From positions 1 to 53,250 of the forward strand of contig JALEHB010000140.1 in assembly GCA_022763285.1 (NCBI GenBank): a DNA stretch of 53,250 bases, read 5' to 3'. The notes beneath the pieces were generated by a model. That model made no database searches and was not told the DNA's origin. It was given only the letters and a program-made list of their open reading frames with translations. Both the position numbers and the translations under genes were made by a program. Positions 5,935 through 23,716 of the stretch are shown here, one piece after another (position 1 is the first letter of the stretch; each line of letters starts with the position of its first letter). This DNA is from Pseudomonadales bacterium (GTDB lineage: Bacteria; Pseudomonadota; Gammaproteobacteria; Pseudomonadales; Pseudohongiellaceae).

Positions 5935-6708
5935 ATGACTGACTTTCATGCTGTAACAGCGGACCGACACGGCAACCTGGCTTGCCGTAGAATCGAAAAC
6001 TTTCTGTTCGCTGCCTCTGACGCGTTGTGCCCACTGGGATCTGCTGAAATACCGCAAGCTGCATTGGCTGCGCCTATCGCTTTTGTAGAATCTGAAACTC
6101 GGTTCCTACCAGTATTTATCCAAGGACTGGAACCCGGACGTAATCTGTTTGTGAACGAGCGTGGGCAATGGTCCAACCGATATGTGCCCAGAAAATACAG
6201 AAATTATCCTTACGCACTTCTCAAGAATCAGGATGGGGACCTGGTGCTCTGTATTGATGAATCATCTGATTTTCTGTGTGAGCCCGGCACAAAAGATTCT
6301 TACCCATTGTTTGATTCAGATGGTAACCCAAGTGAAACAGTTAAAATAATCCTGAATGAACTTCAACAAACTAGCTCTCTGTGTGAAAGCGCCGAAAGGA
6401 TTGCAAATGAATTGCAACAACACTCCCTGATCAAGCCCTGGGAACTATCCATTAGTTCCAACGGGCATTCAATTGAAGTGAACGGCCTCCATTGCATCGA
6501 CGAAAAACAGTTAAATGAACTTGACTCACTAGCACTGGAATCTTTGAGAGACAGCAGAGCATTATTAGTTGCGTACAGCCAAATTTTATCAATGCCTCAT
6601 GCACTAGGATTATCCAAGCTGACGAGACAATATGCTGATTCAAAGCCGTTTGCTGATATCATGCTTGATGCGCCTGATTCTGGCAGTATCAATTTTGACA
6701 ATCTCTAG
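5935..6708 (+). CDS. SapC family protein
   Basis: The 257-aa product matches the SapC family by its characteristic run: an APIAFVESETRFLPVFIQGL segment, then NLFVNERGQW, YVPRKYRNYPYALLK, and LCIDESSDF. SapC is named for an S-layer-associated locus in Campylobacter, but its biochemical role is unknown. No signal peptide or membrane segment is visible, so it should be cytoplasmic. The gene is convergent with the methyltransferase gene (9-base gap) and lies near the coat-protein gene, which fits the family's usual surroundings. The DNA here looks more AT-rich than the rhamnose operon, hinting at separate acquisition. Confidence 0.82.
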   Translation: MTDFHAVTADRHGNLACRRIENFLFAASDALCPLGSAEIPQAALAAPIAFVESETRFLPVFIQGLEPGRNLFVNERGQWSNRYVPRKYRNYPYALLKNQDGDLVLCIDESSDFLCEPGTKDSYPLFDSDGNPSETVKIILNELQQTSSLCESAERIANELQQHSLIKPWELSISSNGHSIEVNGLHCIDEKQLNELDSLALESLRDSRALLVAYSQILSMPHALGLSKLTRQYADSKPFADIMLDAPDSGSINFDNL

Positions 6709-8460: not shown

Positions 8461-8540
8461 TCGATACCTGGTTTCAGATATCAGGGCTACTCTTACAGTG
8501 TAATTTCACCTCTTTGTCATATTCCATATTGAAATATGTA

Positions 8541-11330
8541 TTACAGGGTAAGGATCTCAGTGGCAATATCTGCACCGCTAAGATCAATAGCACCTGTAAG
8601 CTTCAGCACGTGGTCGCCAGCATTCTGGAAGGTAGCAGCAGCTTCATTGTCAACAACAATGTAAGTGTCACCACCGAACTGGAACCAGTTAACAAGGCCC
8701 GCTGCTGATCCATCACCGGCGGCTGCGGCATCCAGGTAATCTTGGAATACTGCGGTGCCAGCCAAAGTAATGGCCGCGCCGATGTTGGTTACGTCAGCGA
8801 TAGCTGCATCAGAAATACCCACGAAGTCCAGCTTGTCGCCAGTAGCGAAATCCTGAATCTCGGCATAGGTATTACCATTTGTAGCAATGCCATTGAAATC
8901 AAAAGTGTCCTTGCCGTCACCACCAGTGATCATATCAAGGCCTGTACCGATGATGATTGTATCGTCACCTGCACCTGCGTTGATCGTATCAGCACCAGCA
9001 CCTGTAGTGATGCTATCAGCCGCAGCACCGGTAGTAATGGTCATCTTCTTGCTGGAGGCAGAAGTGTCGAAGGTATTGATTTCGGTAGAACTACCAGTGA
9101 TGGTGGCATCTTTAGCCAGGGCACCAGTTGTCCATGTCACATCACCATCAGTTACACCGCTGGCATCGAATGACGTCACAGTGGTATTGGTGTTGGTCAG
9201 CGTCAGACCCGCATCGCCAGAGACAACAATAGAAGCAACTTTATCGGCTACCAGAGTCAGAGTGTGCTCAATGGAAGTTGTGGTAGTTGCTGTGTCGTCA
9301 GTGCTGATGTTGACTGTTTCAGTGTTATTCACTGTTACAGAGTTGGCAGCTACAGCTGCTGAACCAGCGATGGCGATGTTAAAGGTGTCTGCAGTATTGG
9401 TTGCAGCGTCCTTGATAGTGACAGTAGTCGCACCAGTCTGATTGTTGGTAACAGTCAGGCTGCCACCAGTAGTCATATTGGTGATACCAACTGCCTGAGC
9501 AACGTCAGCAGAGAATTTCACTGCAGACAGATCATCCAGGTTGTCGAGGTCAACTGTCACACCTGCGCCAGCAGCACCCGCCAATTCAACCACTTCAAAG
9601 CCGGCAATCTTGGCCTGGAAAGTCGCTCCAGCGGAAGCAGTACCAGCATCGTCGGCATCGGCGAAAGCCAGGGTGTCGGCACTGCCGTCGCCTGCATCAA
9701 TTGAACCGCCAGTACCCAGAGCAGTAACACCGGCACTCAGAGTAACCTTGTCGTCACCACCGCCGGTAGTGATGGTTTTGGTGGTTGCACCCAGAGTAAT
9801 CGCATCAGCAGCATCGGAACCAGTGTAAGTGACATCGGTATCCAGAGCTGATGTAATTGTAACGCCACCAGTGCTGGTGGAAGTAATAGTCAAGCCAGTA
9901 GCTTGCGTGCCCAGAGCAGCGCTCAGAGACTGGTCACCGCTGATGTTCAGAGCAGTAGCCAGTGTATTGGACAGAGTCACACCAGTTGACTTCTTGCCAG
10001 TGGTTTCAACATTTACCGTAGTAGCAACCACATCAGCGATAGTACCGCCGGTAACATTGTTCAGGGACAGGTCCAGGCTGTGCTTGGCAGTGTCGTTATC
10101 AATAGTGATACCTTTGCTGCTGTTAGCTACAGTCAATTCAGTCAACGCATCAGAGTTGATCGCTGCAGTACCACCGTGCAGGCCATTGATGGTTGCACTG
10201 GCAAGAGTACCAAGCTTGGTATCAGTTGCAGCATCTTTGTCGTCAATCTTAACCGCGGCCATGAAAGCTTCACTGCCAGTTGCAGTAGTCTGAGTTACAG
10301 AAGCAGAGCCTGTACCAGAGCCACCGGTTACAGTGATGGTTTTGCCTGAGTTATCAACAACGTCTTTGATGCTGATATCAACAGCGTGACCACCGCTAAC
10401 AGTAATGTCAGCAGCTGTGTCGACATTACCAGAGAGTGTTACGTCAGTTGTAGCACCGGCGGTAATTGTTTGGGCAGCATCAATGCTTTGCAGAGCTACT
10501 GTCGCAGATTCCAGACCGGTCCATGCAGACACATCCAGAGCACCACCACGAAGTTCTTCAACAGATGTAAGAACCAGAGACTCTACGTTCTTGACGCTGC
10601 TTACAGCACCAAAATTGGCGCCTGCGGCTGCAGTACCAGTTACGTCATTGACGACCAGCGTGTCTTCTCCGGCACCACCGTCGATCTTGTCGAGGCCGGT
10701 TACAGTGTCTTCGGCACCATTGATGGTGTCATCGCCAGTAGTACCAACGATATTGTCGACACTCTTGGTGAGGGTAAAAGTTTCACCAGCAGTCTTGGTG
10801 CCATCGGCAACAGCTTTGGCAGATGTTACAGAAGCGTCAGTTTCATCAACATTTTCGATGACTGCTTCAAGATCATCCAGTGTGCTGGCGCTCAGATTCA
10901 GGGTAACTGAATAGTATTCAGCCACTTCAACTTTGTTGTTGAACGCAGTTGCCGCGGTGCCCAGGTTGGCATCATCTTCGGCAATGGTATCCATGAAGTC
11001 GATAACCAGCCAAACGAGGTCGCCGCGAGACATGCCGCCGTTCAGCTCGGTTACTGCAATGGCAACGGCCTCATCCATGACTTCCTGGGACACATTGCTG
11101 CCCAGAATGCTGGTAAGGAAGTTGGTTGCAAATTCTTCATTGGTAAGAAAGTTAGGATAAGCTGCCTTAAACACTGTTGAATTGGCCAGTGTAATTGTCA
11201 GGTCGCGCAAGCTTGTGCCGGCTTCGATTGAAGTGGTCAGCTCTGCAAGCACACTAGCGCCAGGTGCGGCGCCGAACATACCCACAACTATTTCAATTAG
11301 ATCCGTACGGGTTTCAGCTGTAATAGCCAT
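8541..11330 (-). CDS. S-layer-like RTX surface protein secreted by type I system
   Basis: The 929-aa product has no cysteine, few basic residues and a very high Thr/Ala/Val/Asp content, as in bacterial surface-layer proteins. Residues 1-145 form a helical head (EIVVGMFGAAPG, NFLTSILGSNVS) like the N-terminal anchor of RsaA-type coat proteins. RTX-type glycine/aspartate motifs occur near residue 195 (GTTGDDTINGA, IDGGAGEDTL), in the middle (TTGGGDDKV) and most clearly at about 767-813 (GAGADTINAGAGDDTI, GGDGKDTF); these bind calcium in other family members. There is no N-terminal signal peptide; the tail (FQFGGDTYIVVDN...) is the likely type I export signal. The exporter is encoded at 17.8-22.2 kb. 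AAGGAG lies 11 bases before the ATG. S-layer is an inference; a large adhesin is the alternative. Confidence 0.82.
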   Translation of the reverse strand: MAITAETRTDLIEIVVGMFGAAPGASVLAELTTSIEAGTSLRDLTITLANSTVFKAAYPNFLTNEEFATNFLTSILGSNVSQEVMDEAVAIAVTELNGGMSRGDLVWLVIDFMDTIAEDDANLGTAATAFNNKVEVAEYYSVTLNLSASTLDDLEAVIENVDETDASVTSAKAVADGTKTAGETFTLTKSVDNIVGTTGDDTINGAEDTVTGLDKIDGGAGEDTLVVNDVTGTAAAGANFGAVSSVKNVESLVLTSVEELRGGALDVSAWTGLESATVALQSIDAAQTITAGATTDVTLSGNVDTAADITVSGGHAVDISIKDVVDNSGKTITVTGGSGTGSASVTQTTATGSEAFMAAVKIDDKDAATDTKLGTLASATINGLHGGTAAINSDALTELTVANSSKGITIDNDTAKHSLDLSLNNVTGGTIADVVATTVNVETTGKKSTGVTLSNTLATALNISGDQSLSAALGTQATGLTITSTSTGGVTITSALDTDVTYTGSDAADAITLGATTKTITTGGGDDKVTLSAGVTALGTGGSIDAGDGSADTLAFADADDAGTASAGATFQAKIAGFEVVELAGAAGAGVTVDLDNLDDLSAVKFSADVAQAVGITNMTTGGSLTVTNNQTGATTVTIKDAATNTADTFNIAIAGSAAVAANSVTVNNTETVNISTDDTATTTTSIEHTLTLVADKVASIVVSGDAGLTLTNTNTTVTSFDASGVTDGDVTWTTGALAKDATITGSSTEINTFDTSASSKKMTITTGAAADSITTGAGADTINAGAGDDTIIIGTGLDMITGGDGKDTFDFNGIATNGNTYAEIQDFATGDKLDFVGISDAAIADVTNIGAAITLAGTAVFQDYLDAAAAGDGSAAGLVNWFQFGGDTYIVVDNEAAATFQNAGDHVLKLTGAIDLSGADIATEILTL

Positions 11331-11520: not shown

Positions 11521-11570
11521 ATCAATAAGCATAAACAAGGCCGTTCCGGCTGCTTGTGACCGTAATCACA
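11521..11570 (-). promoter_or_regulatory. Predicted class II CRP-type promoter of the coat-protein gene
   Basis: The 16-base palindrome TGTGA-CCGTAA-TCACA (11555-11570) is a perfect match to the CRP half-sites. On the minus strand it reads TGTGATTACGGTCACA, and a -10 hexamer TATGCT (11533-11528) is centred 32 bp downstream. That is the spacing of class II promoters, where the activator sits at -41.5. No good -35 box is needed at such promoters. The likely start is near 11521. Confidence 0.72.
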
Positions 11571-11764
11571 TGGACCGGAAATGGCTTTGAATCCTGCTTA
11601 ATTTACATCCGGCTTGGGTCAAGTTCTAAAACCGCAAGCAGACTTGTGCCGGATACTACCGTTTAGCGGCAGATCAAGCAACAAATTGCAGGCTTTTTTT
11701 ACCTTAAGAACTTTCTGTAAGTCGCTCATATCTGCAAAGTTTTTAGCGCTGAGGGACTTCCAGG

Positions 11765-11780
11765 TGTGATCCGGGTCACA
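11765..11780. promoter_or_regulatory. CRP-type palindrome next to the TPR/barrel gene stop
   Basis: TGTGA-TCCGGG-TCACA carries perfect CRP half-sites and abuts the stop codon of the TPR/barrel gene. It is centred about 250 bp upstream of the predicted coat-protein transcript start, so it could be an auxiliary site for that promoter. No -10 box at class II spacing was sought successfully here. Confidence 0.55.
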
Positions 11781-13229
11781 TTAACGGAATCTGAAGCTGA
11801 GGCCCACCTCGAAGGTGGTGTCGCGATTCTCGAAAAGTTCGATATTGCTGGCCTGGTACTGGTGGAAGAAATTGGCCAAGAATACAGCATTAATCCCTGA
11901 AATATCAATGGGTTGCCTATACTGTGCCAAGACATAGCTGCGCTCCACCCGGCGCAGGCCGCCACTGATGAGCAGCTCGCTGTAGCTTTCGCGGTCGCGC
12001 ATGCGGGTATGGTTGAACACGGTCCGCACCGAGCCCGGACCGGCATCAAACTGAAAATCTGCATTCAACTGCCAGCCCTGCCGGTCGCCGCCGGGCCGCT
12101 CGGAACGCAGCGCCTGGCTGTTGAGAACACCCGCGCTGAAATTAATACGGGCATTTTCCAGGAATGTCAGCAGCGCTGGCTGCTCTGCGCCACCCAGCGG
12201 GCAACTCAGGCCGGCGGAAAGGCGTGAATCCGCCGCATTCAAGGTACTCTGGTCATGATAGAGCTGGTATTGCAGCGCCAGATCGTAGAAGGGCCGGCAG
12301 GCACCCAGGGACCCGGCGCTGTATCTGGCTCTACCTTCGGCGGCACTGAAGAGCGGCGACCCACCGAACATCAAATTGCTGAAGGCCGTGTCAAATTGCC
12401 AGCTGTGGCTTCTTGAAGGTCGGATGTAGTTATAGCGCAGGTCTGCCTGGAGCAGATCGGAGTCGGAATCTTCACTGAGCCTGCCCCGAATATCGGCAGA
12501 AAAATTCTGCTGGAAGCCGGGAGAAAGACGTCGATGACGACCACCCAGGCGGATATTGCCATAGGGACCACTGATGGGCCGGAATTCAGGATTCAGGGGC
12601 AATAACACTGATTCCCCGGAAAGCGTCAGGGTCACCAGGTCTGGCGCCGGAGCGCCATTGAGATTGTCATCGTAACCAAGCAACAGGTCGGCATAAATTT
12701 CGTTCTGGCGGGTCAAGGCGCGCCAGCGTTCGTCTCGTTCTCTCAACACCGGTAGCAAGCTGGCTGGTAGATCAGTGCGGGCCAACAAGCGCTCATTCAA
12801 CTCCAGGGCATTGAAAATCTGGCCTTCCTGAAACAGGGCCTGGGAGTAATCTACCTGGGCAGCACCATTGTCCGGATCCAGCAGTAAAGCTCGCTCCAGG
12901 GATTCAAAGGCATCGGCCAGTAATCCGCTGTTTAACTGGGCAGCGCCCAGCAAGGCAAAGTACTGCGAAGAATCCAGACAGCGACCAAGCAGCGGCTCCA
13001 GCCTGGTCACCTGAGCCTGCCAATCCGGCCCGGAAAAGGCCATATAGCCGGTCAGGTCCGGGCATCCGGCAGACTGCGCCAGAACTGGCTGATTACAGCC
13101 AAAACTGAGCACAATAGACAGCAGTAAAAATATACCTGAACGCCGACTGGCGGCAGATCTGGAGATATTTTTACGACTGGTGGTTAGCGCCATGGCATTG
13201 CTGGTTCGCGGCATGGCGCTGATTATCAT
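11781..13229 (-). CDS. TPR-containing outer-membrane beta-barrel protein
   Basis: The product (482 aa from the ATG at 13229) has an N-terminal signal (IFLLLSIVLSFGC...LAQ), a periplasmic TPR-like region at about residues 55-150 (AFESLERALLLDPDNGAAQVDYSQALFQ), and a C-terminal part of about 300 residues with alternating strands ending in GLSFRFR, the aromatic end typical of outer-membrane barrels. The layout resembles Slam/PgaA-like TPR-barrel proteins, but I cannot assign one. A Cys lies near the signal end (FGCNQ), but the cut after LAQ looks better. It is the last gene of the FecR-cyclase operon. An upstream TTG at 13250 and ATGs at 13214 and 13193 are other possible starts. Confidence 0.7.
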   Translation of the reverse strand: MIISAMPRTSNAMALTTSRKNISRSAASRRSGIFLLLSIVLSFGCNQPVLAQSAGCPDLTGYMAFSGPDWQAQVTRLEPLLGRCLDSSQYFALLGAAQLNSGLLADAFESLERALLLDPDNGAAQVDYSQALFQEGQIFNALELNERLLARTDLPASLLPVLRERDERWRALTRQNEIYADLLLGYDDNLNGAPAPDLVTLTLSGESVLLPLNPEFRPISGPYGNIRLGGRHRRLSPGFQQNFSADIRGRLSEDSDSDLLQADLRYNYIRPSRSHSWQFDTAFSNLMFGGSPLFSAAEGRARYSAGSLGACRPFYDLALQYQLYHDQSTLNAADSRLSAGLSCPLGGAEQPALLTFLENARINFSAGVLNSQALRSERPGGDRQGWQLNADFQFDAGPGSVRTVFNHTRMRDRESYSELLISGGLRRVERSYVLAQYRQPIDISGINAVFLANFFHQYQASNIELFENRDTTFEVGLSFRFR

Positions 13230-13321
13230 GAATCGCGGGGGAGGGCGCAATCGATAGCGATTAGCCTGTGAAAAGTGCCAGGAGTCCTATTCATTGCGGA
13301 GGTCAGTAAGGAAAAAGCTAA

Positions 13322-15322
13322 CTATTCCCGGGCAGCAGTCTTGCCACCGGAAAGAACCTTGAGCTCGGGCCGAGCTGTTGTAGCAGAAATTCCGCCCAAA
13401 TCCTGGCCGGCTGCTTCCGGAGCGAACAGCGTGTGAGGTGTAGTGAGTCCTGCCAGCAGATAACTGCCCTGCGATTCGAGCGCTTGCTCATTGAGCTGTC
13501 GAGCCACGCAGGGGCCCAACAATATTGGCTGCGCCAGTTCAGCCGTCATATCCTGAATACGCAATGCAATAGTCACGGTATCTCCCAACAGGGCATGGCT
13601 GCGGCGATGTGCCGGGCCAAGCGAACCTGCCAGTACCGGGCCTTGTTCAATACCGATGCCCACGGCAAGAGGTTCCAGACCCTGAGGCGCATGTTCGGCC
13701 AGGGCATCGCGGCGAATTTCAGCTTGCAAATCCCGCGCTGCTCTCAATGCCGCATCTGCCGCTGCGCAGTCTGCATCTTTCCAGACCGCCAACAAGCCAT
13801 CACCGGTAAATTCATTCACACGCCCACCATGTTTCTCAATGATCTGGGTTGCCCTTGTGAAAAAGAAATGCAGCACTGCCGCAGATTCCTCGGGCGGACG
13901 GTTTTCACCAAAAGCCGAAAAGTTGCGCAAGTCGGCACTGAGGATAGTCGCCTGAATGCGGCGGGCGTTAATATTAGAGCTGGGCAATGCGTAAGCAATT
14001 TCACGCGCCAGTTCACCCGGTAAATAGCTGCTGAGGTTGCCAAACACCCGGGCTCGCTCCAGGCGTACAGTGGCAAGCTCCAAAAGCAGCAGGCCTGCTG
14101 CAGTAATTACACTGAAAAGAGCCGGGGCTAACCAACCGAGCCAGATATTGGCAGTGGAGAGTAGAGTAATATGCAAAAGCAGCGCTGCAGTGGGTAAGAC
14201 TATGGCGGCCACAGGCAAGCCTAGTTCTGTCCACCTGCCTTCCCGACTGGCCAGCAGAAGCAGCAAGGCTCCGGCCATGACTGCCAGAAGCAACTGGAAG
14301 AAACCGGCTGCTACTGGTGTGTAGGGAATGTTTACATCAAGCAGGCTCCCCAGCATACGGGCTAATAGTTCTACTCCCGGTGTGGCACCGTTGAAAGGGG
14401 TGGGGACAACATCACCCATCCCGAACGCAGTAGCGCCAACCAGCACCCAGTTATTGGCAAACATCTGTGGCTCATAATCACCACGCAACAGATCCACCGC
14501 CGAGACTGCGCGATAGCTGGCCGGATCCCGCTCGTAGGAAATGCGCAGACTGCCGTCTTCAGAAAGAGGTAGTTTAAGGCCCGGGTATGCCGGCAAGGTC
14601 AGCGTCAGTGCCGGATCGAACGGACTTTGCGCAGGACTGATTTCTGCTTGCCAGCGACCGGCATCAATTGCCTGTAACAAGGCTGATATGGCAAGGGCTG
14701 GATAGGCCTGGTTATTCACACAGACGATTGCCGGGGCGTGACGAATGGCACCGTCCCGATCTATCACAGGCGTAATATGGCCTTTGGCGACGCCGGAAAA
14801 CGTCCCTGCCGGGGCAATAAAGTCAGTGCTGGCAGGTATTCCGGTATTACAATCAATACCAGTGACGGGATGTGAAATCTGGCCTGCCTGAATGGATTGA
14901 GATGATCCCACTACAGGGTATTGAGCCAGAACAACGGCATTGGCATCCTGTAATGCAGACAGCAACTGATCATCACCAGGACGAGGTTCACTGTAAATAA
15001 TGTCATGCAATTGAAGCTGCGCACCGGCTTCATCGATTGCCCGGGTCAGCTCTGCCATTATCTCGCGGGACCAGGGCCAGGGACCAATGGCATCCAGGCT
15101 CGCTTCATCAATACTTACAATAGTGATTCGTTGCTCGACAACGGTTTCCGGAGACAGGGTCCAGCCCAGATCGCCGAGCCTTTCTTCCAGTGTGTGGAGT
15201 GCAGCAGGAAAGATTTGCAGAATCAACAGGCTCAATAATCCACCAGCCAACAACACAGCCATTCGCCGGGTCAGCTGCGACCAGGCGAAAGGATTGATGT
15301 ATTGTTTTACTAGCTTGCTCAT
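13322..15322 (-). CDS. CHASE2-domain class III nucleotide cyclase
   Basis: The protein (666 aa) has a TM segment near residue 25, a periplasmic CHASE2 sensor domain to about 330 (ITIVSIDEASLDAIGPWPWSR is the hallmark), three more TM segments at about 345-415, and a C-terminal class III cyclase domain. The metal-binding Asp residues are kept (ADLRNF near 464, GDGLLAVW near 506). However, the adenine-specifying Lys before the second Asp is Glu (NEFTGD), and the Asn of the usual VNxAxR motif is Thr (VTIALR, near 586). Product identity (cAMP, cGMP or none) is therefore uncertain. It starts ten bases after the FecR stop; a GTG two codons upstream is an alternative start. Confidence 0.85.
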   Translation of the reverse strand: MSKLVKQYINPFAWSQLTRRMAVLLAGGLLSLLILQIFPAALHTLEERLGDLGWTLSPETVVEQRITIVSIDEASLDAIGPWPWSREIMAELTRAIDEAGAQLQLHDIIYSEPRPGDDQLLSALQDANAVVLAQYPVVGSSQSIQAGQISHPVTGIDCNTGIPASTDFIAPAGTFSGVAKGHITPVIDRDGAIRHAPAIVCVNNQAYPALAISALLQAIDAGRWQAEISPAQSPFDPALTLTLPAYPGLKLPLSEDGSLRISYERDPASYRAVSAVDLLRGDYEPQMFANNWVLVGATAFGMGDVVPTPFNGATPGVELLARMLGSLLDVNIPYTPVAAGFFQLLLAVMAGALLLLLASREGRWTELGLPVAAIVLPTAALLLHITLLSTANIWLGWLAPALFSVITAAGLLLLELATVRLERARVFGNLSSYLPGELAREIAYALPSSNINARRIQATILSADLRNFSAFGENRPPEESAAVLHFFFTRATQIIEKHGGRVNEFTGDGLLAVWKDADCAAADAALRAARDLQAEIRRDALAEHAPQGLEPLAVGIGIEQGPVLAGSLGPAHRRSHALLGDTVTIALRIQDMTAELAQPILLGPCVARQLNEQALESQGSYLLAGLTTPHTLFAPEAAGQDLGGISATTARPELKVLSGGKTAARE

Positions 15323-15332
15323 TGTCACCGGC

Positions 15333-16748
15333 TCAGGGGCTGCCCCACAAAGTCAGTCCGTGTATGCCACCGTCCTCAAGCTGCTTTTCGAAGAAATAAC
15401 CAGCTTCGCTGCCATCGAGTGTAACCGCGCCGGCGATACGCTGATCATCTGTGCGGCTGTGGAAATAGCCGCCATCAAAAACACTTCCCGATGCACTGAA
15501 GGTAAGCGGGCCAGTGAACTCGGCATTGAGATCAAGAGAGGTGGCAAAGCGGTTGAAATCAAAATCCAGTTCCAGATTGCCATTATTGACCTGCATGGCA
15601 AAAACACCACTATCTGATTCGTAAAAGGCCTGGGCGCTCTCCAGCCCGAAGCTCACTACACCCAGACCCGCATCAACAGGCCGACTCTCAAGATCCGGAC
15701 GCAACAGAAAATATTCACGCCTGCCATTGATGGTTACTTCCCGGCCGGAAATTACCTCATCATAAGCCAGGCTTATTCGCTCATTTTCGCCCTGGCCATC
15801 ACCCCAGCGACCCCAGACAAGTTGGCTGTCAGTCAGGGACGTTGCCGAGACTGGTGCATCGGGAGTGAAGTCCGGTAAAGGCACAGGAGTTTCAGCAGCA
15901 CTATCCGAATTGATATTCTGAGCTACTGCATTGACCCGTGATGAAGTGACTCCCTCAAGATAGACTTCATTGCTGGTGGAATTGTCATCTGCCTGATTGC
16001 TGCTCTCGCTGGAATTGTTTACCGCGACTTGTACGTCTCCCTGCAGGCTGGCCGGATCACGCTCATGAGCGGCCGGCAGCAGACGCGGCATACTGTTGCT
16101 ACTGTTAAACTCCACCAGTTGCATGCTGCTGTCGGAAACTTCTACCGCATTGACAAGACAGGGCCCCAGCGCATCAATGGCACAATCTGCCGAATAGGGG
16201 GCCATCACAATTGCCCCCTCATTCACCAGCGCCCGCACTGTAGTCTCCGTGGCGCTGACAACAAAATCAGTTCCACGCACCCCGATCGCCGCTACCGGTG
16301 TATTTAGTCGAAAGCGGTCCCGTGCCGAATGGGCGGCGTCTCCGGATATGGCGCGCGTGACACCTTCCTGCAAATTGAACTTCACCGAGGACTGTTCCGG
16401 GCGCGCCTGATTGTAGTCATAGCGCAATATTTCCAAACGGCTGTCCGGCCTGACACTGACCAGGGCCTGGTCCACGAAGCGAATATGTACATGCCCATTC
16501 AAGGCGGTAACAATGCGCTGATTGACAGTGACCGGGTCGCCGACCCTGATTGCCTGCCGCCCGCCGTCGACATCTTCAATAAATGCCTTACCCAGTAGCA
16601 GAATAACCTCGCCTGCGGCCGGTGCTGATGCGCTCTGAGTCTGGGCACTGCTCACCGCCGACAAAGCAATCAGCAGCAAAGCTGTAAAACTTTTACGCAT
16701 TGAGTCGAAAGAGTAGATTGTCATAATAGATTTCAGAGTCCTGGCCAT
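15333..16748 (-). CDS. FecR-domain secreted protein
   Basis: The 471-aa product has a signal sequence (MRKSFTALLLIALSAVSSA after a 16-residue extension) and a FecR domain at about residues 45-170: LLLGKAFIEDV..., HIRFVDQALVSVRPDSRLEI, and TPVAAIGVRGTDFVV, the family's best-kept motif. The C-terminal part (about 330-471) looks beta-rich and ends LTLWGSP. There is no FecI-type sigma factor beside it; FecR-CHASE2 cyclase-TPR groupings occur in other proteobacteria. It should be periplasmic or surface-facing and may feed a signal to the cyclase that follows. Starts at 16724 and 16700 are possible, but only 16748 has a fair ribosome site (AAGGCAG). Confidence 0.82.
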   Translation of the reverse strand: MARTLKSIMTIYSFDSMRKSFTALLLIALSAVSSAQTQSASAPAAGEVILLLGKAFIEDVDGGRQAIRVGDPVTVNQRIVTALNGHVHIRFVDQALVSVRPDSRLEILRYDYNQARPEQSSVKFNLQEGVTRAISGDAAHSARDRFRLNTPVAAIGVRGTDFVVSATETTVRALVNEGAIVMAPYSADCAIDALGPCLVNAVEVSDSSMQLVEFNSSNSMPRLLPAAHERDPASLQGDVQVAVNNSSESSNQADDNSTSNEVYLEGVTSSRVNAVAQNINSDSAAETPVPLPDFTPDAPVSATSLTDSQLVWGRWGDGQGENERISLAYDEVISGREVTINGRREYFLLRPDLESRPVDAGLGVVSFGLESAQAFYESDSGVFAMQVNNGNLELDFDFNRFATSLDLNAEFTGPLTFSASGSVFDGGYFHSRTDDQRIAGAVTLDGSEAGYFFEKQLEDGGIHGLTLWGSP

Positions 16749-16765
16749 AGCTCTGCCTTACTATA

Positions 16766-16815
16766 CCCGAGAAAGATAGCCCGAATTGACTCCTGCCGGG
16801 GTGACTGTAATCACA
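16766..16815 (-). promoter_or_regulatory. Predicted class II CRP-type promoter of the FecR-cyclase operon
   Basis: On the minus strand TGTGATTACAGTCACC (16815-16800) is followed 32 bp later, centre to centre, by TATCTT (16778-16773), a -10 box. This is the same geometry as in front of the coat-protein gene, and 14 of 16 bases of the two sites are identical. The start would be near 16766, only about 18 bases before the fecR-like ATG. The site also lies upstream of the divergent crp-like gene and could serve both. Confidence 0.68.
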
Positions 16816-16980
16816 CGAAGTGTGATAACTGAATTTATTATTTCTATTCAACTACTTATACTGGGCGGCCTGGCTCGGCAGAGGGGCTGCAACGGGCTCA
16901 AGTCCACCTGGTTCCCCCTGGCCGCAATAAGGTCCCGAACGGAAATTCAAGGGCAGCACTGGTGAGAACACACTGATTTC

Positions 16981-17685
16981 ATGAATATCACCCCAGCCAT
17001 GCTCCGCACCTTCCCGGTATTGAAAGCCTTGCCGGAGGAAGTCCTGCTCCAGCTGGCGCAGCAAAGTAGTGCCAGGAAGTACAGCAGACGCGGCATTGTA
17101 CTCAATGCAGGAGAGCAGGAAGATGCCGTCTGCTTTCTTTTTGAAGGGCGATTGCAGGGAGTGGATTTTACAATAGATGGTCGCGAAGTTGGGCTCTATT
17201 TCGTCGAACCTGGCGACTTCTGCGGCGAACTTGCTCTTTTTGATGGCTCGCCCCAGCCAGAGTACGTGATCGCTCTGACGGCAGTTGTGGTGGTGGCCAT
17301 ACCCCGGAAGTTACTGCAGGAAGTGATATTCGCCACCCCCCGGGCCATGCAACTCATCGCCGCCCGAGTGGCCAGCCGGGTGAGGCAATTGAGCAAACAA
17401 CGGGCCCTGCTGGGGCTGCCCAATATCGCCCAACGGGTTTGTTGCCAGCTTTGGCTGCTGGTGGCCGATAAAGTGAAGGAAGACCAGCCGTCGGCGATTA
17501 TTAGCAACCCTCCGACCCATATGGAAATCGCCATCATGCTCAATTTGAGCCGGGAAACGGTCACCAGGGTCTTCCAGACACTGCAACAAGGCCAGATTGT
17601 GAAGCGGGATGGTCCGGCTCGCCTGGTTATCAAAAACCTTGCCATGTTGAGACAACTGGCTGATGGCAGCCAGGAGCTCCGGTAG
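16981..17685 (+). CDS. Crp/Fnr-family transcription regulator
   Basis: The 234-aa product has an N-terminal cyclic-nucleotide-binding barrel (residues 15-125, with GELALFDG near 81), a dimer helix, and a C-terminal winged helix (HMEIAIMLNLSRETVTRVFQTL, near 180-200). The recognition helix keeps R-E-T-V-x-R, the residues CRP uses to read TGTGA. The phosphate-binding Arg-Ser pair of CRP (RS after the GELGLF loop) is absent: here the loop reads SPQPEY. No Fnr-type N-terminal cysteines are present. The protein may thus bind CRP-type DNA sites but respond to something other than cAMP, or to none. It is divergent from the FecR-cyclase operon and upstream of the secretion genes. Confidence 0.88.
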   Translation: MNITPAMLRTFPVLKALPEEVLLQLAQQSSARKYSRRGIVLNAGEQEDAVCFLFEGRLQGVDFTIDGREVGLYFVEPGDFCGELALFDGSPQPEYVIALTAVVVVAIPRKLLQEVIFATPRAMQLIAARVASRVRQLSKQRALLGLPNIAQRVCCQLWLLVADKVKEDQPSAIISNPPTHMEIAIMLNLSRETVTRVFQTLQQGQIVKRDGPARLVIKNLAMLRQLADGSQELR

Positions 17686-17822: not shown

Positions 17823-19559
17823 GTGGCTACCAGACCCACACAAACAATGAATAACAAAGATCAGAAATTTCCAGAACTGGCTAACGCCCTGAGCGATGTC
17901 AGAAACTATTTTGCCTACGCAGGTTTGTTCAGCGCCGCGATCAATCTGCTGATGCTGGTGCCAATTATTTATATGCTGCAGGTCTATGACCGTGTTCTTG
18001 CCAGCAGCAGCTACTCCACTCTGGGCATGCTTACTCTCTTGATGGTAGGCCTGCTGCTGGCGCTGGGAGGCTTTGAGTGGGTTCGATCGATGATCATGGT
18101 AAGCGCCAGCAACCGGATAGAAAAAAAGCTCAGGGACCGTATCTCCGATGCCACCTTCAAACGTTCTTTAATGAGCGGCGGTATGGTCACAAATTCCCAG
18201 CCACTGGCTGACCTGTCACAGCTCAGACAGTTTTTGACTGGTAATGGCGTCTTTGCGTTTTTTGATGCCCCCTGGGTACCAATTTATATCGCCGTTATGT
18301 TCATGTTTCATCCTTGGTTCGGGGTTGCTGCCATCTTTGCCGCCATTGTCATGGTTGCGCTGACATTTGCGACGGAAATGATAACCCATGACAAATTGAC
18401 CGAAGCAAATACCCTGTCTTCAAGCGTTGCCAATCAATTGAACGGCAGCCTGCGTAATTCCGAAGTCATCGAAGCCATGGGCATGGCAGACGATATTCGA
18501 TTGCGCCAGCATCAGAAATCCGATCAAGTTCTGCGCCTGCAAACCGACGCCAGTCAGCAAGCTGGCGCCCTGACCAGTGTCTCGAAAACTTTCCGTATGG
18601 TGATGCAATCCCTGATGTTGGGGCTCGGCGCCCTGCTCGCATTGCAACAGGAAATATCCCCGGGAATGATGATTGCCGGTTCCCTGTTACTGGGCCGTGC
18701 CCTGGCTCCGATTGATTTACTGGTTGGCTCCTGGCGCGGATTTACTGAAGCCAGGGCACGCTATAACCGTCTGGGGGAATTACTGGAGCGGATTCCTGCG
18801 AATCAGGAAACCATGAAGCTGCCAGCACCTGAGGGCAATCTCAGCATTGAACAACTGGTGGTTGTACCACCTGGCGCGAAAGTTCCGGTCGTTCGCGGCG
18901 TGAGTCTTAAACTCAATGCCGGTGAAGCACTGGGTATTGTCGGTCCCAGCGCTTCAGGGAAATCAAGTCTGGCCCGAGCGATACTAGGCATCTGGCCTGC
19001 TCAGGCCGGCAAGGTTCGCCTTGACGGTGCCGACATCTGGAACTGGGATCGCACAGAACTTGGCCCCTATATAGGTTATCTGCCACAGGATATTGAATTG
19101 TTTGATGGTTCTATTTCCGAGAATATTTGTCGCTTTGGAGAGGCTGATCCGGAGAAAATCGTTGACGCAGCCAAGCTGGCTGGTGTTCACGAACTTATTC
19201 TGCACCTCCCAGAGGGTTACGACACAGTCATTGGTGGTAATGGCGGCGCGCTTTCCGGTGGTCAACGACAGCGCATTGGCCTGGCCCGTGCCGTTTATAA
19301 CAGCCCCAAACTTCTGCTGCTCGATGAACCCAATTCCAATCTGGATGATCAGGGAGAGCGGGAACTGGTAGATGCAATCAGACGCATCAAACAACAGGGT
19401 TGCACAGTCATTGTCATTTCCCACCGCACCATGGTTTTGCACAGCATGGATAAGCTACTGGTAATGAAGGAAGGTACCCCAATTCATTTCGGAGCCAAAG
19501 ATGAAGTCTTGAAAAATCTGATGGGTCCACAAATTCAGAACAAATCAGCTACCGCATAA
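17823..19559 (+). CDS. Type I secretion ABC transporter, PrtD type
   Basis: This inner-membrane ATPase/permease drives type I export, here most likely of the RTX coat protein. The 578-aa product has a membrane domain (about residues 20-320, several TM segments including AAINLLMLVPIIYMLQVYDRV) and an ATPase domain with Walker A GPSASGKSS, signature LSGGQRQRIGLARA, Walker B LLLLDEPNSNLD and the switch His in VISHR. The length fits the PrtD/RsaD branch; there is no C39 peptidase domain. The start is GTG at 17823 with AGGA six bases upstream; the ATG at 17847 has no ribosome site. It is followed 12 bases later by the adaptor gene. Confidence 0.93.
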   Translation: MATRPTQTMNNKDQKFPELANALSDVRNYFAYAGLFSAAINLLMLVPIIYMLQVYDRVLASSSYSTLGMLTLLMVGLLLALGGFEWVRSMIMVSASNRIEKKLRDRISDATFKRSLMSGGMVTNSQPLADLSQLRQFLTGNGVFAFFDAPWVPIYIAVMFMFHPWFGVAAIFAAIVMVALTFATEMITHDKLTEANTLSSSVANQLNGSLRNSEVIEAMGMADDIRLRQHQKSDQVLRLQTDASQQAGALTSVSKTFRMVMQSLMLGLGALLALQQEISPGMMIAGSLLLGRALAPIDLLVGSWRGFTEARARYNRLGELLERIPANQETMKLPAPEGNLSIEQLVVVPPGAKVPVVRGVSLKLNAGEALGIVGPSASGKSSLARAILGIWPAQAGKVRLDGADIWNWDRTELGPYIGYLPQDIELFDGSISENICRFGEADPEKIVDAAKLAGVHELILHLPEGYDTVIGGNGGALSGGQRQRIGLARAVYNSPKLLLLDEPNSNLDDQGERELVDAIRRIKQQGCTVIVISHRTMVLHSMDKLLVMKEGTPIHFGAKDEVLKNLMGPQIQNKSATA

Positions 19560-19571
19560 GTTGTAAGCACA

Positions 19572-20900
19572 ATGAACCAGACACTATTAACAGCCCGTGA
19601 AGACCAGTCAGCAGATGATGGCATTACCACTAGCATGGATCGACCGCGCCGCATTGGGCTTGGAATCTTCCTGCTGATATTCGGAGTCTTCGGTGTCTGG
19701 GCGGCGACGGCCCCAATTGACAGCGCCGCCGTGGCACCTGGTGTGGTCACTGTTGAATCCTATAGCAAGGTGGTGCAACACCTGGAAGGAGGAATCATCA
19801 GTGAAATCCTGGTGCGCAATGGTGACAGGGTCGAGGCTGGTCGCCCATTGCTCAGACTGGATTCCACACAATCTCTGGCTCAATTGGAAATGGCCAATGC
19901 CCAGTTTGTCGCCCTTAAAGCCCGGGAAGCGCGCCTGCAAGCTGAACGTGAATCGCTTGAAGAAATTGATTTCCCGGATAGCCTTGATAACAGTGCCTCT
20001 CTGGTAATCGCTGAAACCACGGCACAAACTGAAATTTTCCAGGCACGTAAAGCCGCCCATGAAGGCAGTATCGAAGTGCTTGAACAGCGCATTGGCCAGT
20101 TGCAATCCACTATCGAAGGCCTGCGGGCACTGCGTTCCAGCAAACAAACCCTCGCAGATTCTTATTCTGAAGAAATTGCTGATGTAGAAGCCTTGCTTGC
20201 ACAGGGGTTTTCGGAGCGCACAAGGCTTCGAGAACTGGAACGCAATCAGGCACGTCTTGAGGGTGAAGTGGCAGACCTTGCCGCGACTATCGCAACGACC
20301 GAGGTCCAAATTGGCGAAACCCGGTTGCAGATCCTGCAGCAGGACCGAGAATTTCAGAATGAAGTGGTTGCTGAGCTCAGCGAAGTACAATCCAGCCTTG
20401 TGGATCTCACTGAACGTATGCGCGCCTTGCGCGATGTTGTAACACGCACAACAATCAGGGCGCCCGATGACGGCATTGTGAACGGCATGCAATTCCATAC
20501 AATTGGTGGAGTGATTGCGCCAGGCACCAAGATCGTTGATATCGTACCTCAGGGCGAAGATCTGATTGTTGAAGCACAGGTTGCCACAACAGACATTGAC
20601 CGAGTGGCGCTGGATCAGGATGCGAGAATTCGATTCCCGACCTTTTCCAGAAACGTTCCTGATATTAGCGGCAGGGTGATTAATCTTTCTGCCGACAGAC
20701 TGGTAGATGAAGCCACAAACGTTCCTTACTATCTTGCCCGCATCGAAGTCACACCCGAAGGGATGGGAAACCTCGGCGAGCTAGTCTTATTGCCGGGAAT
20801 GCCTGCAGAAGTTTTTATCAATACTGGCTCCCGAACCTTGCTCCAGTACCTCTTCAAGCCTTTTTCCAATGCCATGGCCCGAAGCTTCACCGAAGATTAA
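19572..20900 (+). CDS. Type I secretion membrane-fusion protein (HlyD/PrtE family)
   Basis: The 442-aa periplasmic adaptor has one TM segment near residues 28-48 (IGLGIFLLIFGVFGVWAA), a biotinyl-lipoyl-like strand (VEVVQHLEGGII-type: SKVVQHLEGGIISEILVRNGD), long helical hairpins (about 95-290), and the second lipoyl half RAPDDGIVNGMQFHTIGGVI. These are standard for PrtE/HlyD adaptors linking the ABC transporter to the TolC-type channel. It lies in the same operon as both partners. Confidence 0.93.
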   Translation: MNQTLLTAREDQSADDGITTSMDRPRRIGLGIFLLIFGVFGVWAATAPIDSAAVAPGVVTVESYSKVVQHLEGGIISEILVRNGDRVEAGRPLLRLDSTQSLAQLEMANAQFVALKAREARLQAERESLEEIDFPDSLDNSASLVIAETTAQTEIFQARKAAHEGSIEVLEQRIGQLQSTIEGLRALRSSKQTLADSYSEEIADVEALLAQGFSERTRLRELERNQARLEGEVADLAATIATTEVQIGETRLQILQQDREFQNEVVAELSEVQSSLVDLTERMRALRDVVTRTTIRAPDDGIVNGMQFHTIGGVIAPGTKIVDIVPQGEDLIVEAQVATTDIDRVALDQDARIRFPTFSRNVPDISGRVINLSADRLVDEATNVPYYLARIEVTPEGMGNLGELVLLPGMPAEVFINTGSRTLLQYLFKPFSNAMARSFTED

Positions 20901-20901
20901 A

Positions 20902-22248
20902 ATGTTGATTGTGCGCCGCAAATTGTCTGCGCTGTTGGCGATTATTATTGCTACAGCGTTCAGTCCTCACAGCCAGGCAGCTGAAACTCGCCTGGTCGAA
21001 GGACAAACACTGGATGATTTCATGACTGCTGCTTTGGTCAATAATCCGCAGTTACAGATTGCAGAGGAACAGTTAAATATTTTTTCCGCGCGCAAGCGAG
21101 CAGCCACCGGGCAACTCTTGCCACAGGTGAACGCTAACGCCAATTTGACTGATAACCGCCGCAGTGTTTCCAATCAGATTCAAAACTTTGATGGTGAACG
21201 CTTCTCTGTTCAGCTGACTCAAACGCTTTTCAATTGGCAAGCATTTGCATCAAGGCGTCGGGCGAATGCTTCCGTCAACCAGGCCGAATCCGAGTATTTC
21301 AACGAACTGGCGACGCTCATGACTGAAGTCGCAGAAAGCTATTTTGATGTACTGCAGGCAGAAGATGCACTGGAATCCATTGCCTCCGAGCAGGATGCAG
21401 TCAGAAACCAGTTAGAGCAGGTGCAGAGCCTGTATGATCGACAATTGGCGCAGGTTACGGATCTCTATCAGGCACAGGCAAGCGTCGCTTCGGTACAGGC
21501 AGAACAACTGAAGCTGGAGGCGGAACTGGCGCTGGCGAGAGACGCACTTCAATCCGTTTCCGGTATCCAGGTAGGGGATATATTCAGTTTGCAGCCCGAG
21601 GTCGATGTAACTCCGCTGGATGGTAGTATTCAATATTGGGTTCAACTGGCAAAGGAGAATAACCCGCTTATTCAATCCAGGCGCTATGCTGTTGAGGCTG
21701 CAGAAGAAAATATTTCGGAAAAACAGGGCGCCTATATGCCACGCGTGACTTTTATTGCGCAAAGGCAGGATTCCAATGTCGGTTTTGACAACGCCCCTCA
21801 AAGCCGCACAGACAACACCTATATTGGCGTAGATGTATCGATTCCCCTCTATGCGGGCGGGAGCAACAAGGCAGCGGTGAGCGAAGCCCGAAGCCAGCGC
21901 AATATCGCTGAAAGCGAACTCCGTCAGGTTCAACTGGAGGCCAGCGAAAGAGTCAGGGGAGCTTATTTGCAAGCACAGGCCAGTTCTTCACTGGTCGAAG
22001 CTGCCGAAGTACTTGTGGATTCCACTGCAGTAAGTGCAGAGGCCATGCAACGAGGTTTTTCGCTTGGCACAGTCACCAGTGTTGATGTACTCAATGCCAT
22101 TCGCGATCAGTACCGCGCCGAGCGCGATCTGCAGAGGGCTCGCTACGAGCAGATAAAGTATATGCTCATCCTGAAGCGGGAAGCAGGCACTCTGGATGCC
22201 GAAGATATCGTGGAAGTGGGTAATTGGCTGGAAGAGACTGAGGATTAA
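20902..22248 (+). CDS. TolC-family outer-membrane channel
   Basis: This is the outer-membrane component of the type I system. The product (448 aa) has a signal peptide (LLAIIIATAFSPHSQA), then two repeats of the TolC fold, with NPQLQIAEEQLN and NPLIQSRRYAVEAAEE as the corresponding repeat starts, plus VDVLNAIRDQYRAERDLQRARY near the end. The size is typical of PrtF/TolC. An ATG at 20902, one base after the adaptor's stop, gives a clean signal peptide; a longer reading from 20869 would overlap the adaptor gene. Confidence 0.92.
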   Translation: MLIVRRKLSALLAIIIATAFSPHSQAAETRLVEGQTLDDFMTAALVNNPQLQIAEEQLNIFSARKRAATGQLLPQVNANANLTDNRRSVSNQIQNFDGERFSVQLTQTLFNWQAFASRRRANASVNQAESEYFNELATLMTEVAESYFDVLQAEDALESIASEQDAVRNQLEQVQSLYDRQLAQVTDLYQAQASVASVQAEQLKLEAELALARDALQSVSGIQVGDIFSLQPEVDVTPLDGSIQYWVQLAKENNPLIQSRRYAVEAAEENISEKQGAYMPRVTFIAQRQDSNVGFDNAPQSRTDNTYIGVDVSIPLYAGGSNKAAVSEARSQRNIAESELRQVQLEASERVRGAYLQAQASSSLVEAAEVLVDSTAVSAEAMQRGFSLGTVTSVDVLNAIRDQYRAERDLQRARYEQIKYMLILKREAGTLDAEDIVEVGNWLEETED

Positions 22249-22264: not shown

Positions 22265-22789
22265 ATGACCATTCTTTCTCGTGTAAGCTGCCACTACGAC
22301 CCAAACGAAGACCGAATCAGGCTGACTGGTGAAGCCGAGGACGGAAATACGAGGGTATTGTGGTCAAGCCATCGCTTGCTGAAACGACTCCTTCCCCACC
22401 TTGTACAACGTCTTGAAAGCAACCCTGTTCCTGATCAGGGCGGAACGCAGACAACTGCATCAGATATCTCTAACAGCAGACAAGGTTTTGCCCAGGAAAC
22501 AGCCGCCGCAAAAATCAAACTACAAAATCCCGTACAAGCCGACGATAGCCAGCTTAGCTATTTGATAAAGGAAGTGGATATCAAGGCCAACGATGAAGGT
22601 GTTGCTCTGATTTTCAAGCACGAAGCTGGAGATGACACTCTGGTTCTGGGAAATGAGCAACTACGACAGTGGCTGTTGATCTTGCATCGAATCTGGCAAG
22701 GAACTGAATGGCCGCAGGATTTTTGGCCAACCTGGATAACAGGGCTTGGGAATAAACCACCAGCGGGAGAAGACCAGGGATTGCATTGA
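22265..22789 (+). CDS. Uncharacterised small protein of the type I secretion operon
   Basis: The 174-aa product is not one I recognise. It is soluble by appearance, with no signal or TM segment. The N-terminus is strand-rich (RIRLTGEAEDGNTRVLW), followed by an amphipathic helix rich in Leu (RLLKRLLPHLVQRLE), a Gln/Ser linker and a C-terminal segment with several Trp (LRQWLLILHRIW, WPQDFWPTWITG). It starts 16 bases after the TolC-family gene and has no later gene on the same strand until 23.7 kb, so it likely belongs to the secretion operon and may act as an accessory of export. Confidence 0.65.
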   Translation: MTILSRVSCHYDPNEDRIRLTGEAEDGNTRVLWSSHRLLKRLLPHLVQRLESNPVPDQGGTQTTASDISNSRQGFAQETAAAKIKLQNPVQADDSQLSYLIKEVDIKANDEGVALIFKHEAGDDTLVLGNEQLRQWLLILHRIWQGTEWPQDFWPTWITGLGNKPPAGEDQGLH

Positions 22790-22823: not shown

Positions 22824-23555
22824 CTACAGATACAACTCCACAATCGCCCGCAGCACATCCTGCAAACTCGCCCCCACCTCTTCCTCACTGAAGCGATAAA
22901 AACCCTCAGCGTATTCCACCTCCGGTGGCAGGGAAAAGGTTCTGCCCTTGTTCAGGGCCAGCACCAGTTCGGGATAGTTGTTTTCGCTGTTCTGGCTGGC
23001 ATAGATGTCCATGACCTTTTCCTTGGCGGCTTTCTGGGCGGTCATGTCGATGAAATAGTTTACCGGGTTTTGTACGCCGATCTCATAGCCGAAGGCTGCC
23101 GGAGCGATGCCTTGCTGGCGTAGCTGTTGCAGCGCGCCCCACACCACATAGGCGGTGGCGCGATGGTCCGGGTGCAGTTCCATGGGGGCGGGGAAAAAGA
23201 CACTGGCCGGGGCGCTTGCCCTGATCTGTTCGGCGGCCTTGTCGATCAGCCGTTGGCATACCTGCACACCGCGGTCAGGCTCATCCCAGTTGTGCAGTTG
23301 CTTTATGCCTAATAATTCGGCGACCTGCTCCACTTCAGTCTTGCGCACTGCCACCAGGTCATCACGATCACCGCCCAGGGCGCCGTCGGTGACTACCACC
23401 AGATGAGTTTCCACGTTTTCTTCACGGGCCCGTACCATGGCACCACCCATACCAAAGGTTTCATCATCGGCATGGGGCGCAAACACCAGCCAGGGGCCGG
23501 CCGGCAAGGGTGAAACACCAAAGGGAATCAGTCTGTGTTCGGGATTGAGATTCAT
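22824..23555 (-). CDS. PIG-L family deacetylase
   Basis: The 243-aa product has the zinc-binding HADDE motif (FAPHADDETFGMGG) and HPDHRAT downstream, which mark the LmbE/PIG-L family of N-acetyl-sugar deacetylases. VVTDGALGGDRDD lies between. It is cytoplasmic by appearance. The gene lies divergently from the Wzm/Wzt exporter, so deacetylation of an amino sugar in the surface glycan is a reasonable but unproven role. Confidence 0.88.
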   Translation of the reverse strand: MNLNPEHRLIPFGVSPLPAGPWLVFAPHADDETFGMGGAMVRAREENVETHLVVVTDGALGGDRDDLVAVRKTEVEQVAELLGIKQLHNWDEPDRGVQVCQRLIDKAAEQIRASAPASVFFPAPMELHPDHRATAYVVWGALQQLRQQGIAPAAFGYEIGVQNPVNYFIDMTAQKAAKEKVMDIYASQNSENNYPELVLALNKGRTFSLPPEVEYAEGFYRFSEEEVGASLQDVLRAIVELYL

Positions 23556-23716
23556 GCTGCTGGCTATTATTCAGGACTTCAGGAATTGTCGAAGTATATA
23601 GGCTGGCGGGAGTGGTTTTTAGTTTTTTTGGCCGATTCATGATTAAATGCGCGCCTTGCATGGCAATTCATCGCCATCAGATTAGCAATAGCACAACACC
23701 GGATCACGACACTGGC

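Follow-up and report, generated by a model that had tools for sequence, protein, structure and literature searches.

Conserved class II CRP-type sites at an S-layer gene and a FecR-cyclase operon beside a Crp-family regulator gene in a Pseudohongiellaceae bacterium and its relatives

We report on a stretch of 53,250 nucleotides, hereafter the window, which comprises positions 1 to 53,250 of contig JALEHB010000140.1 (GenBank assembly GCA_022763285.1) from a Pseudomonadales bacterium of the family Pseudohongiellaceae. The window carries a gene for a surface-layer (S-layer) protein, referred to as the coat gene, an operon encoding a FecR-domain protein, a CHASE2 class III cyclase and probably a TPR protein, and, divergent from this operon, a gene for a Crp-family regulator which we have named crpL. 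Both the coat gene and the fecR-cyclase operon are preceded by a CRP-type palindrome at a fixed distance from a -10 element, and this arrangement is conserved across relatives. We consider it quite probable that a CrpL-type dimer at both sites activates the S-layer gene and the fecR-cyclase(-TPR) operon, that sensor and CrpL are joined in a feedback, and that the effector is probably not cyclic AMP (cAMP). The functional part of this proposal is predicted from comparison of sequences; papers are cited by their PMC numbers.

Promoter sites of the coat gene and the fecR-cyclase operon

The sites and -10 elements concerned are the following.

11555..11570, minus strand: class II CRP-type site of the coat gene, TGTGATTACGGTCACA on the minus strand, with its centre at about -41.5
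11528..11533, minus strand: coat -10 element TATGCT, with a predicted start near 11521 and a 191-base leader
16800..16815, minus strand: class II CRP-type site of the fecR-cyclase operon, TGTGATTACAGTCACC on the minus strand
16773..16778, minus strand: fecR -10 element TATCTT, with a predicted start near 16766
11765..11780, no strand assigned: third palindrome, perfect and lineage-specific, 210 bp upstream of the coat site

The pattern TGTGAN6TCACA is present without mismatch at 11555-11570 and 11765-11780 and with one mismatch at 16800-16815. Direct comparison of the coat and fecR sites confirmed the 14 of 16 identical bases given in the initial annotation, and the common geometry described there was recovered as well, the centres of the TATGCT and TATCTT hexamers each lying 32.0 bp from that of their site. 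E. coli CAP binds at -41.5 in class II and at -61.5 in class I promoters (PMC7192510), and the distance of 32 bp to the -10 element follows from the class II position. Both hexamers match TATAAT at only four of six bases, and conservation across relatives is therefore the decisive evidence.

Loose matches to the palindrome are uninformative because, at up to two mismatches, there is no enrichment in the window (14 found versus 24 expected). The 3.40 Mb genome to which the window belongs contains nine perfect palindromes versus one for the reversed pattern; at up to one mismatch the excess is small (57 versus 45). The scan of the genome for the motif, which had been proposed earlier as a check, was done on both strands with a class II composite defined as palindrome with Y/R inner bases + 22 + TAnnnT. 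With up to one mismatch it gave eight matches versus two for the reversed control, and without mismatch it returned only the two reported sites, where about 0.1 would be expected at equal base frequencies. The third palindrome is real, but it has no TAnnnT at 31-33 bp and was rejected as a general part of the system, since only three of the 51 non-redundant loci in which the coat gene is preceded by a site, the window included, have two of them.

Conservation across relatives

The sample consisted of 102 loci, namely the best 80 of 112 in relatives, 21 from the same genus and the window, which were reduced to 82 non-redundant loci at 97% crpL identity. Most of the relatives are metagenome-assembled genomes (MAGs) of Pseudohongiella-type, OM182 and other Gammaproteobacteria, with Oceanospirillum, Terasakiispira and Marinomonas as more distant members. 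A broken CrpL copy (L056, genome G013) was left outside the CrpL alignment and is within the 82 for site and residue counts. Coat counts refer to the 52 of the 82 loci that yielded a coat N-terminus; in several of the others a contig end truncates the locus.

A site with at most one mismatch is present in the gap between crpL and fecR in all 82 loci, the window included, and upstream of the coat gene in 51 of 52, being perfect in 50. The lone coat gene without a site (L134) is the linked coat of genome G022, whose other coat gene on a different contig (L176) has one. Spacing is conserved along with the sites. At the fecR promoters TAnnnT lies exactly 32 bp from the site in 75 of 82 loci and at 31-33 bp in all of them; for the coat-upstream sites the corresponding numbers are 47 and 52 of 54, and the two exceptional sites belong to the window and L133, each of which carries an extra upstream site. 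At the other offsets tested TAnnnT averages 1.95 (fecR) and 0.62 (coat) occurrences, as against 75 and 47 at 32 bp. The remainder of the 1.42 Mb of locus DNA contains 24 sites with up to one mismatch, which is about the density of the window's own genome. The DNA flanking the sites is on average only 34% identical, so that the conservation is not mere recent ancestry. Clustering of the flanks at 60% identity left 37 fecR and 27 coat clusters, whose representatives have TAnnnT at 32 bp in 30 and 21 cases, respectively.

Position logos of the fecR and coat promoters showed conserved T-12, A-11 and T-7 and no conserved TTGACA-like -35 element, as expected of an activator-dependent class II promoter. 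At their inner edges the half-sites have Y and R in all 82 fecR sites, a feature absent from six of the seven other perfect palindromes in the window's own genome. Nearly all fecR-side sites deviate from the palindrome at the end base closest to the promoter (plus strand A in 32, G in 28, C in 20 and T in two), and this position, unlike in the coat sites, avoids the palindromic match; the site of the signalling operon may thus be the weaker of the two. Taken with the spacing, these comparisons support the earlier proposal that the two sites are class II promoter sites, and the conservation of both, together with the behavior of relocated coat genes, supports their assignment to one local regulon.

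Coat genes at other positions

The coat-like gene of Marinomonas (L144 and L146) is found on the downstream side of crpL and is oppositely oriented; it has a site with TAnnnT 32 bp away on the plus strand. In Terasakiispira (L138) a coat-like gene located upstream and farther off also has a site. Among the coat matches in same-genus genomes 17 of 25 have an upstream site, 15 of these with TAnnnT at 32 bp and two with TATGC one base farther. Two coats on other contigs and away from crpL, L176 and L175 (G030), carry a perfect site plus TATGCT. The site therefore appears mostly to move with the relocated coat gene. Since one of three coats in G022 and one of two in the window's own genome carry a site, there seems to be usually one coat gene per genome in the regulon, with genome G033 as the exception. 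The second coat-like gene of the window's own genome (L192, G000:C135:7040-7555) has an open frame of 1948 aa and no CRP-type site upstream.

Candidate regulators of the sites

The recognition helix residues R180, E181 and R185 of CAP are kept in all 82 CrpL proteins. The same genome encodes an ordinary Crp/Vfr with R82/S83 as well as R180/E181/R185, and the motif alone does not decide between the regulators because both keep these reading residues. CrpL is favoured because neither of the two strict composites in the 3.40 Mb genome is more than 5.5 kb from crpL, and because CrpL co-occurs with the coat and the cyclase. In the 37 same-genus genomes that the searches had in common CrpL and coat were both present in 16, CrpL only in six, coat only in two and neither in 13 (p = 6e-4, uncorrected for kinship); for CrpL and cyclase the numbers were 20, two, one and 14, respectively (p = 3e-7, likewise uncorrected). 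These genome lists were made by hand from strong matches only, with CrpL at E below 1e-70, coat at E 0.001 or better and cyclase at E 2.8e-45 or better and 46% identity or more. CrpL is thus the likeliest activator at both sites.

Two alternatives concern the identity of the activator. Vfr-cAMP and CrpL with its own signal could both bind and compete or cooperate at the same sites, which the shared reading residues and core motif would allow; we regard this as unlikely in view of the Y/R inner flanks, which are found in the CrpL-linked sites and are missing from nearly all other perfect palindromes of the genome. It is somewhat less likely still that global cAMP-Crp/Vfr alone uses the sites, linking the S-layer to general physiology through cAMP, and that CrpL does something else. 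Vfr carries a complete cAMP signature as well as the residues for reading TGTGA, the genome holds seven further perfect palindromes, and a coat site occurs in one genome where CrpL was not found (G021, see below). Against this stand the position of both strict composites close to crpL, the presence of the site between crpL and fecR in all 82 loci, though these were chosen by CrpL, and the fact that it is CrpL which tracks coat and cyclase, whereas weak Crp-family matches of 22-25% identity, which we assume to be Crp/Vfr, are also present in coat-less same-genus genomes such as G008, G014, G023, G025 and G032. Two CRP-type sites with one mismatch are located just upstream of the Crp/Vfr gene of the window's own genome (L057; G000:C2:8400-8415 and 8464-8479), within about 90 bp, a point in favor of Vfr; neither has TAnnnT at 32 bp on either strand.

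A number of observations weigh against the activation of both targets by CrpL. Crp/Vfr, with its own upstream sites and the same reading residues, could also bind here. The core identity of 99-100% arises by construction, sites having been picked at up to one mismatch, and the fecR-side count is conditioned on CrpL, through which the 82 loci were gathered (best 80 of 112). In G021 (92% complete, 420 contigs) a coat gene on a 3.9 kb contig (L180) has a perfect class II site and no CrpL was found, and G026 has coat and cyclase without CrpL, in an assembly which is 66% complete and whose contig stops before crpL would start. Six of the 25 same-genus coat matches have no site despite the presence of upstream DNA (L182, L191, L192, L195, L196 and L197); two further site-less matches, L193 and L194, lack upstream DNA. 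Finally, G033 has CrpL and yet a site in none of its three coats with upstream DNA (L182, L196 and L197), L194 being its fourth.

Nucleotide pocket and cyclase active site

In the Clr regulator of Sinorhizobium meliloti the cyclic nucleotide is held via G85, E86, R95, S96, T140 and T141 (PMC10127613). The counterparts of G85 and E86 are kept in CrpL (G71 in 81 of 82, E72 in 79 of 82). The phosphate-contacting Arg/Ser pair (R82/S83 in CAP, R95/S96 in Clr) is not kept, the positions being Q in 79 and P in 77 of the 82 proteins and followed by E in 80, nor is the base-contacting T127 (Clr T140), which is M or L in all 82. As the replacement residues are themselves conserved, they suggest a pocket that has changed rather than one that is decaying. 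The predicted fold of CrpL (mean pLDDT 90.7) resembles GlxR, Clr and mycobacterial CRP; against the CRP equivalog NCBIfam NF008732 CrpL scores 69.8 bits, below the cut-off of 266. T127L/I is frequent in CRP* alleles, where it presumably lowers the need for cAMP, and the CRP* so described is not simply cAMP-independent (PMC2743635); by analogy, T127M/L of CrpL resembles such mutants. Non-canonical cassettes of the CRP superfamily are described as sensing other ligands (PMC2246266).

Residues of the cyclase were counted in the 67 loci whose open frame exceeds 500 aa. The two metal-binding Asp are kept in all 67 and the catalytic Arg in 64. The Lys which specifies ATP in class III adenylyl cyclases is not kept and is Glu in 67 of 67, and the position of the transition-state Asn is T, S, A or G in 64, N in one and a gap in two. 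The genome of the window contains six other cyclase matches, of which the three that were read (L150, L151 and L152) all keep Lys and Asn. In the PDB the cyclase profile matches 2w01 best; this entry, which was deposited under the name "adenylate cyclase", has Glu aligned at the Lys position. We take 2w01, partly on account of this aligned Glu, to be the CHASE2 guanylyl cyclase Cya2. In Cya2 the Glu at the Lys position sets the use of GTP, and E488K gives adenylyl cyclase activity (PMC5995499); the cyclases of the loci have the Glu of this bacterial guanylyl cyclase type at the specifying position.

A CrpL that has lost residues contacting cAMP and a cyclase with Glu in place of Lys make it probable that the effector of the circuit is not cAMP, and the term "CRP-type" as used here should not be equated with "cAMP-dependent". 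The cyclase may put out cyclic GMP (cGMP) or some other product, or its signal may be slow or non-catalytic. We tentatively suggest, as a possibility judged nearly as probable as its opposite, that the sending and the receiving end of the cAMP connection were remodelled jointly in Pseudohongiella-like bacteria, Terasakiispira and Marinomonas, the cyclase towards GTP (or a different, slow or non-catalytic output) and CrpL with its new, conserved Q-P-E motif and T127M/L, creating a private S-layer channel apart from ordinary cAMP-Crp. The opposing view, in which the cyclase makes cAMP as an ordinary adenylyl cyclase does and CrpL continues to bind it through other contacts, could draw on the retained G71/E72, metal-binding Asp and catalytic Arg and on the S. 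meliloti CyaD1-FecR-Clr locus, which has the same composition and is cAMP-responsive (PMC5498481). Given the near-uniform replacement of the Arg, Ser and Thr contacts in CrpL and of Lys and Asn in the cyclase, we think this improbable.

The predicted promoter of crpL

Candidate promoter elements were also found for crpL itself.

16857..16862, plus strand: crpL -10 element TATACT; the site at 16800..16815 is 52.0 bp away, a class I-like distance (-61.5)
16834..16839, plus strand: -35-like TTTATT of crpL, 17 bp before the -10 element

As the fecR-side site is also 52 bp from this -10 element, crpL may itself be part of the circuit. Many relatives have a TATAAT-like crpL -10 element together with a TTTGCT-like -35 element. 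The distance from the shared site to a TATAAT-like crpL hexamer is 51-53 bp in 48 of 82 loci. A further 21 loci gave other values, ranging from 29 to 119 bp, and the search found no such hexamer in the remaining 13, which makes this part less certain, and a class I role of the shared site at crpL is only partly supported. In the window itself the relatives-wide scan chose TATTAT at 31 bp, and closer inspection gives TATACT at 52 bp. In a subgroup of loci (L082, L089, L090 and L094) a perfect palindrome lies over the crpL stop codon (+697), before the secretion ABC gene. It was rejected as a class II site, having no plus-strand TAnnnT at 32 bp and overlapping the stop codon, and is among the 24 other sites.

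Proposed mechanism and its significance

In the circuit that we propose, a CRP-family dimer, most likely CrpL, would bind both sites and, being in the class II position, activate sigma-70 polymerase at the S-layer gene and the fecR-cyclase(-TPR) operon, whose promoters have weak -10 boxes and no conserved -35 element. The better sigma-70 promoter of crpL, which in many loci has this site some 52 bp from its -10 element, would provide basal CrpL, maybe tuned by the site. An envelope-facing sensor would be formed by FecR together with the TPR protein and the CHASE2 cyclase; its output would govern CrpL, so that S-layer supply would be set by a closed feedback loop. Such a circuit would be built like the cAMP-CRP circuit, with an effector probably other than cAMP. 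That the palindromes are due to chance or serve as terminators or repeats, for which the missing enrichment of loose matches in the window might be quoted, is highly improbable and was rejected, in view of their presence in 82 of 82 and 51 of 52 loci at a fixed -10 spacing within otherwise dissimilar DNA and of the lack of any run of T directly after them, as checked by eye.

To our knowledge, it is poorly understood how Gram-negative cells match S-layer production to need. The locus offers a concrete candidate switch for an RsaA-type coat, and this switch is present in strains with records other than MAGs, for example Pseudohongiella nitratireducens (L093), Pseudohongiella sp. O18 (L131) and Marinomonas fungiae (L146). 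If cyclase and regulator did leave cAMP together, they would represent a natural second-messenger pair that changed specificity while DNA recognition stayed fixed, which would bear on how cells keep such circuits apart.

Genes of the locus

Gene identities were derived from comparisons with Pfam, NCBIfam and PDB.

8541..11330, minus strand: coat gene, 929 aa, RsaA-type S-layer protein with an RTX repeat stretch (PF00353)
11781..13250, minus strand: TPR protein gene, weak TPR matches; between coat and cyclase in relatives
13322..15328, minus strand: CHASE2 class III cyclase gene (PF05226 and PF00211), Glu at the ATP-specifying Lys position
15333..16748, minus strand: FecR-domain protein gene (PF04773)
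16981..17685, plus strand: crpL, Crp-family regulator CrpL (PF00027 and PF13545), non-canonical nucleotide pocket
17823..22248, plus strand: type I secretion genes for a PrtD-type ABC transporter, HlyD and a TolC-like OEP (Pfam/NCBIfam matches)

Residues 304-928 of the coat protein align to RsaA (E 3e-66), and this homology, together with the adjoining type I secretion genes, identifies the predicted product as an RsaA-type S-layer protein. The FecR-domain protein is probably exported, judging by eye from its signal-like N-terminus, and the TPR protein is a probable outer-membrane barrel. In L056 several genes of the locus are interrupted, crpL included, which may reflect decay or assembly errors.

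Further genes of the window lie around these. A SapC-family gene (5935-6708, plus strand; PF07277, E 1.3e-52) is found near the S-layer gene; the family name is known from an S-layer system. An ABC-2 membrane protein with a Wzt-like ABC protein (23612-25782, plus strand) and a PIG-L deacetylase (22824-23555, minus strand) suggest polysaccharide export near the S-layer genes, and this polysaccharide is possibly the S-layer anchor. An open reading frame of 174 aa (22265-22789, plus strand), which has no match in Pfam or NCBIfam, is a neighbour of the secretion genes in 13 of the 21 loci from the same genus.

Comparison with known systems

Among the open-licence papers listed we found no account of this locus and nothing to the point on Crp-type control of S-layers. 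The closest known system is the S. meliloti locus clr - cyaD1 - smc02177 (FecR) - smc02178, which has the same composition of a Crp-family regulator near a CHASE2 cyclase and FecR (PMC5498481); in the window, too, regulator, CHASE2 cyclase and FecR genes are side by side. Clr activates smc02178 and, ex planta, the FecR gene smc02177 (PMC5498481). Clr (7pza) is also the best PDB sequence match of CrpL and among its best structural matches. The two regulators differ in that Clr contacts cAMP and cGMP via R95, S96 and T140/T141 (PMC10127613), whereas CrpL has Q, P and M/L at R95, S96 and T140; in that E181 of CAP, absent from Clr (PMC10127613), is kept in CrpL; and in that the Clr box is TGTTN8AACA (PMC5498481), as against the core TGTGAN6TCACA. 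One target here, unlike at the S. meliloti locus, is an S-layer gene.

With E. coli CAP the system shares the site at -41.5 of class II promoters (PMC7192510), R180/E181/R185 and the TGTGA core; it differs in its effector residues and in a small dedicated regulon which may include the regulator's own gene. Like Synechocystis Cya2, a CHASE2 guanylyl cyclase, the cyclase has Glu at the specifying position, a likeness which depends on the profile match 2w01 being Cya2; 2w01 keeps the transition-state Asn, which is replaced in nearly all of our loci. The coat and the nearby PrtD-type ABC transporter recall Caulobacter RsaA with its type I secretion, the differences being that the N-terminal part of the coat lies outside the best RsaA match and that local Crp-type control is proposed here. 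We do not class the module as a member of the cAMP-CRP type because its effector residues depart from those defining that type. Instead, the locus appears to be a variant of the Clr-CyaD1-FecR type of module which differs in effector residues, DNA core and target.

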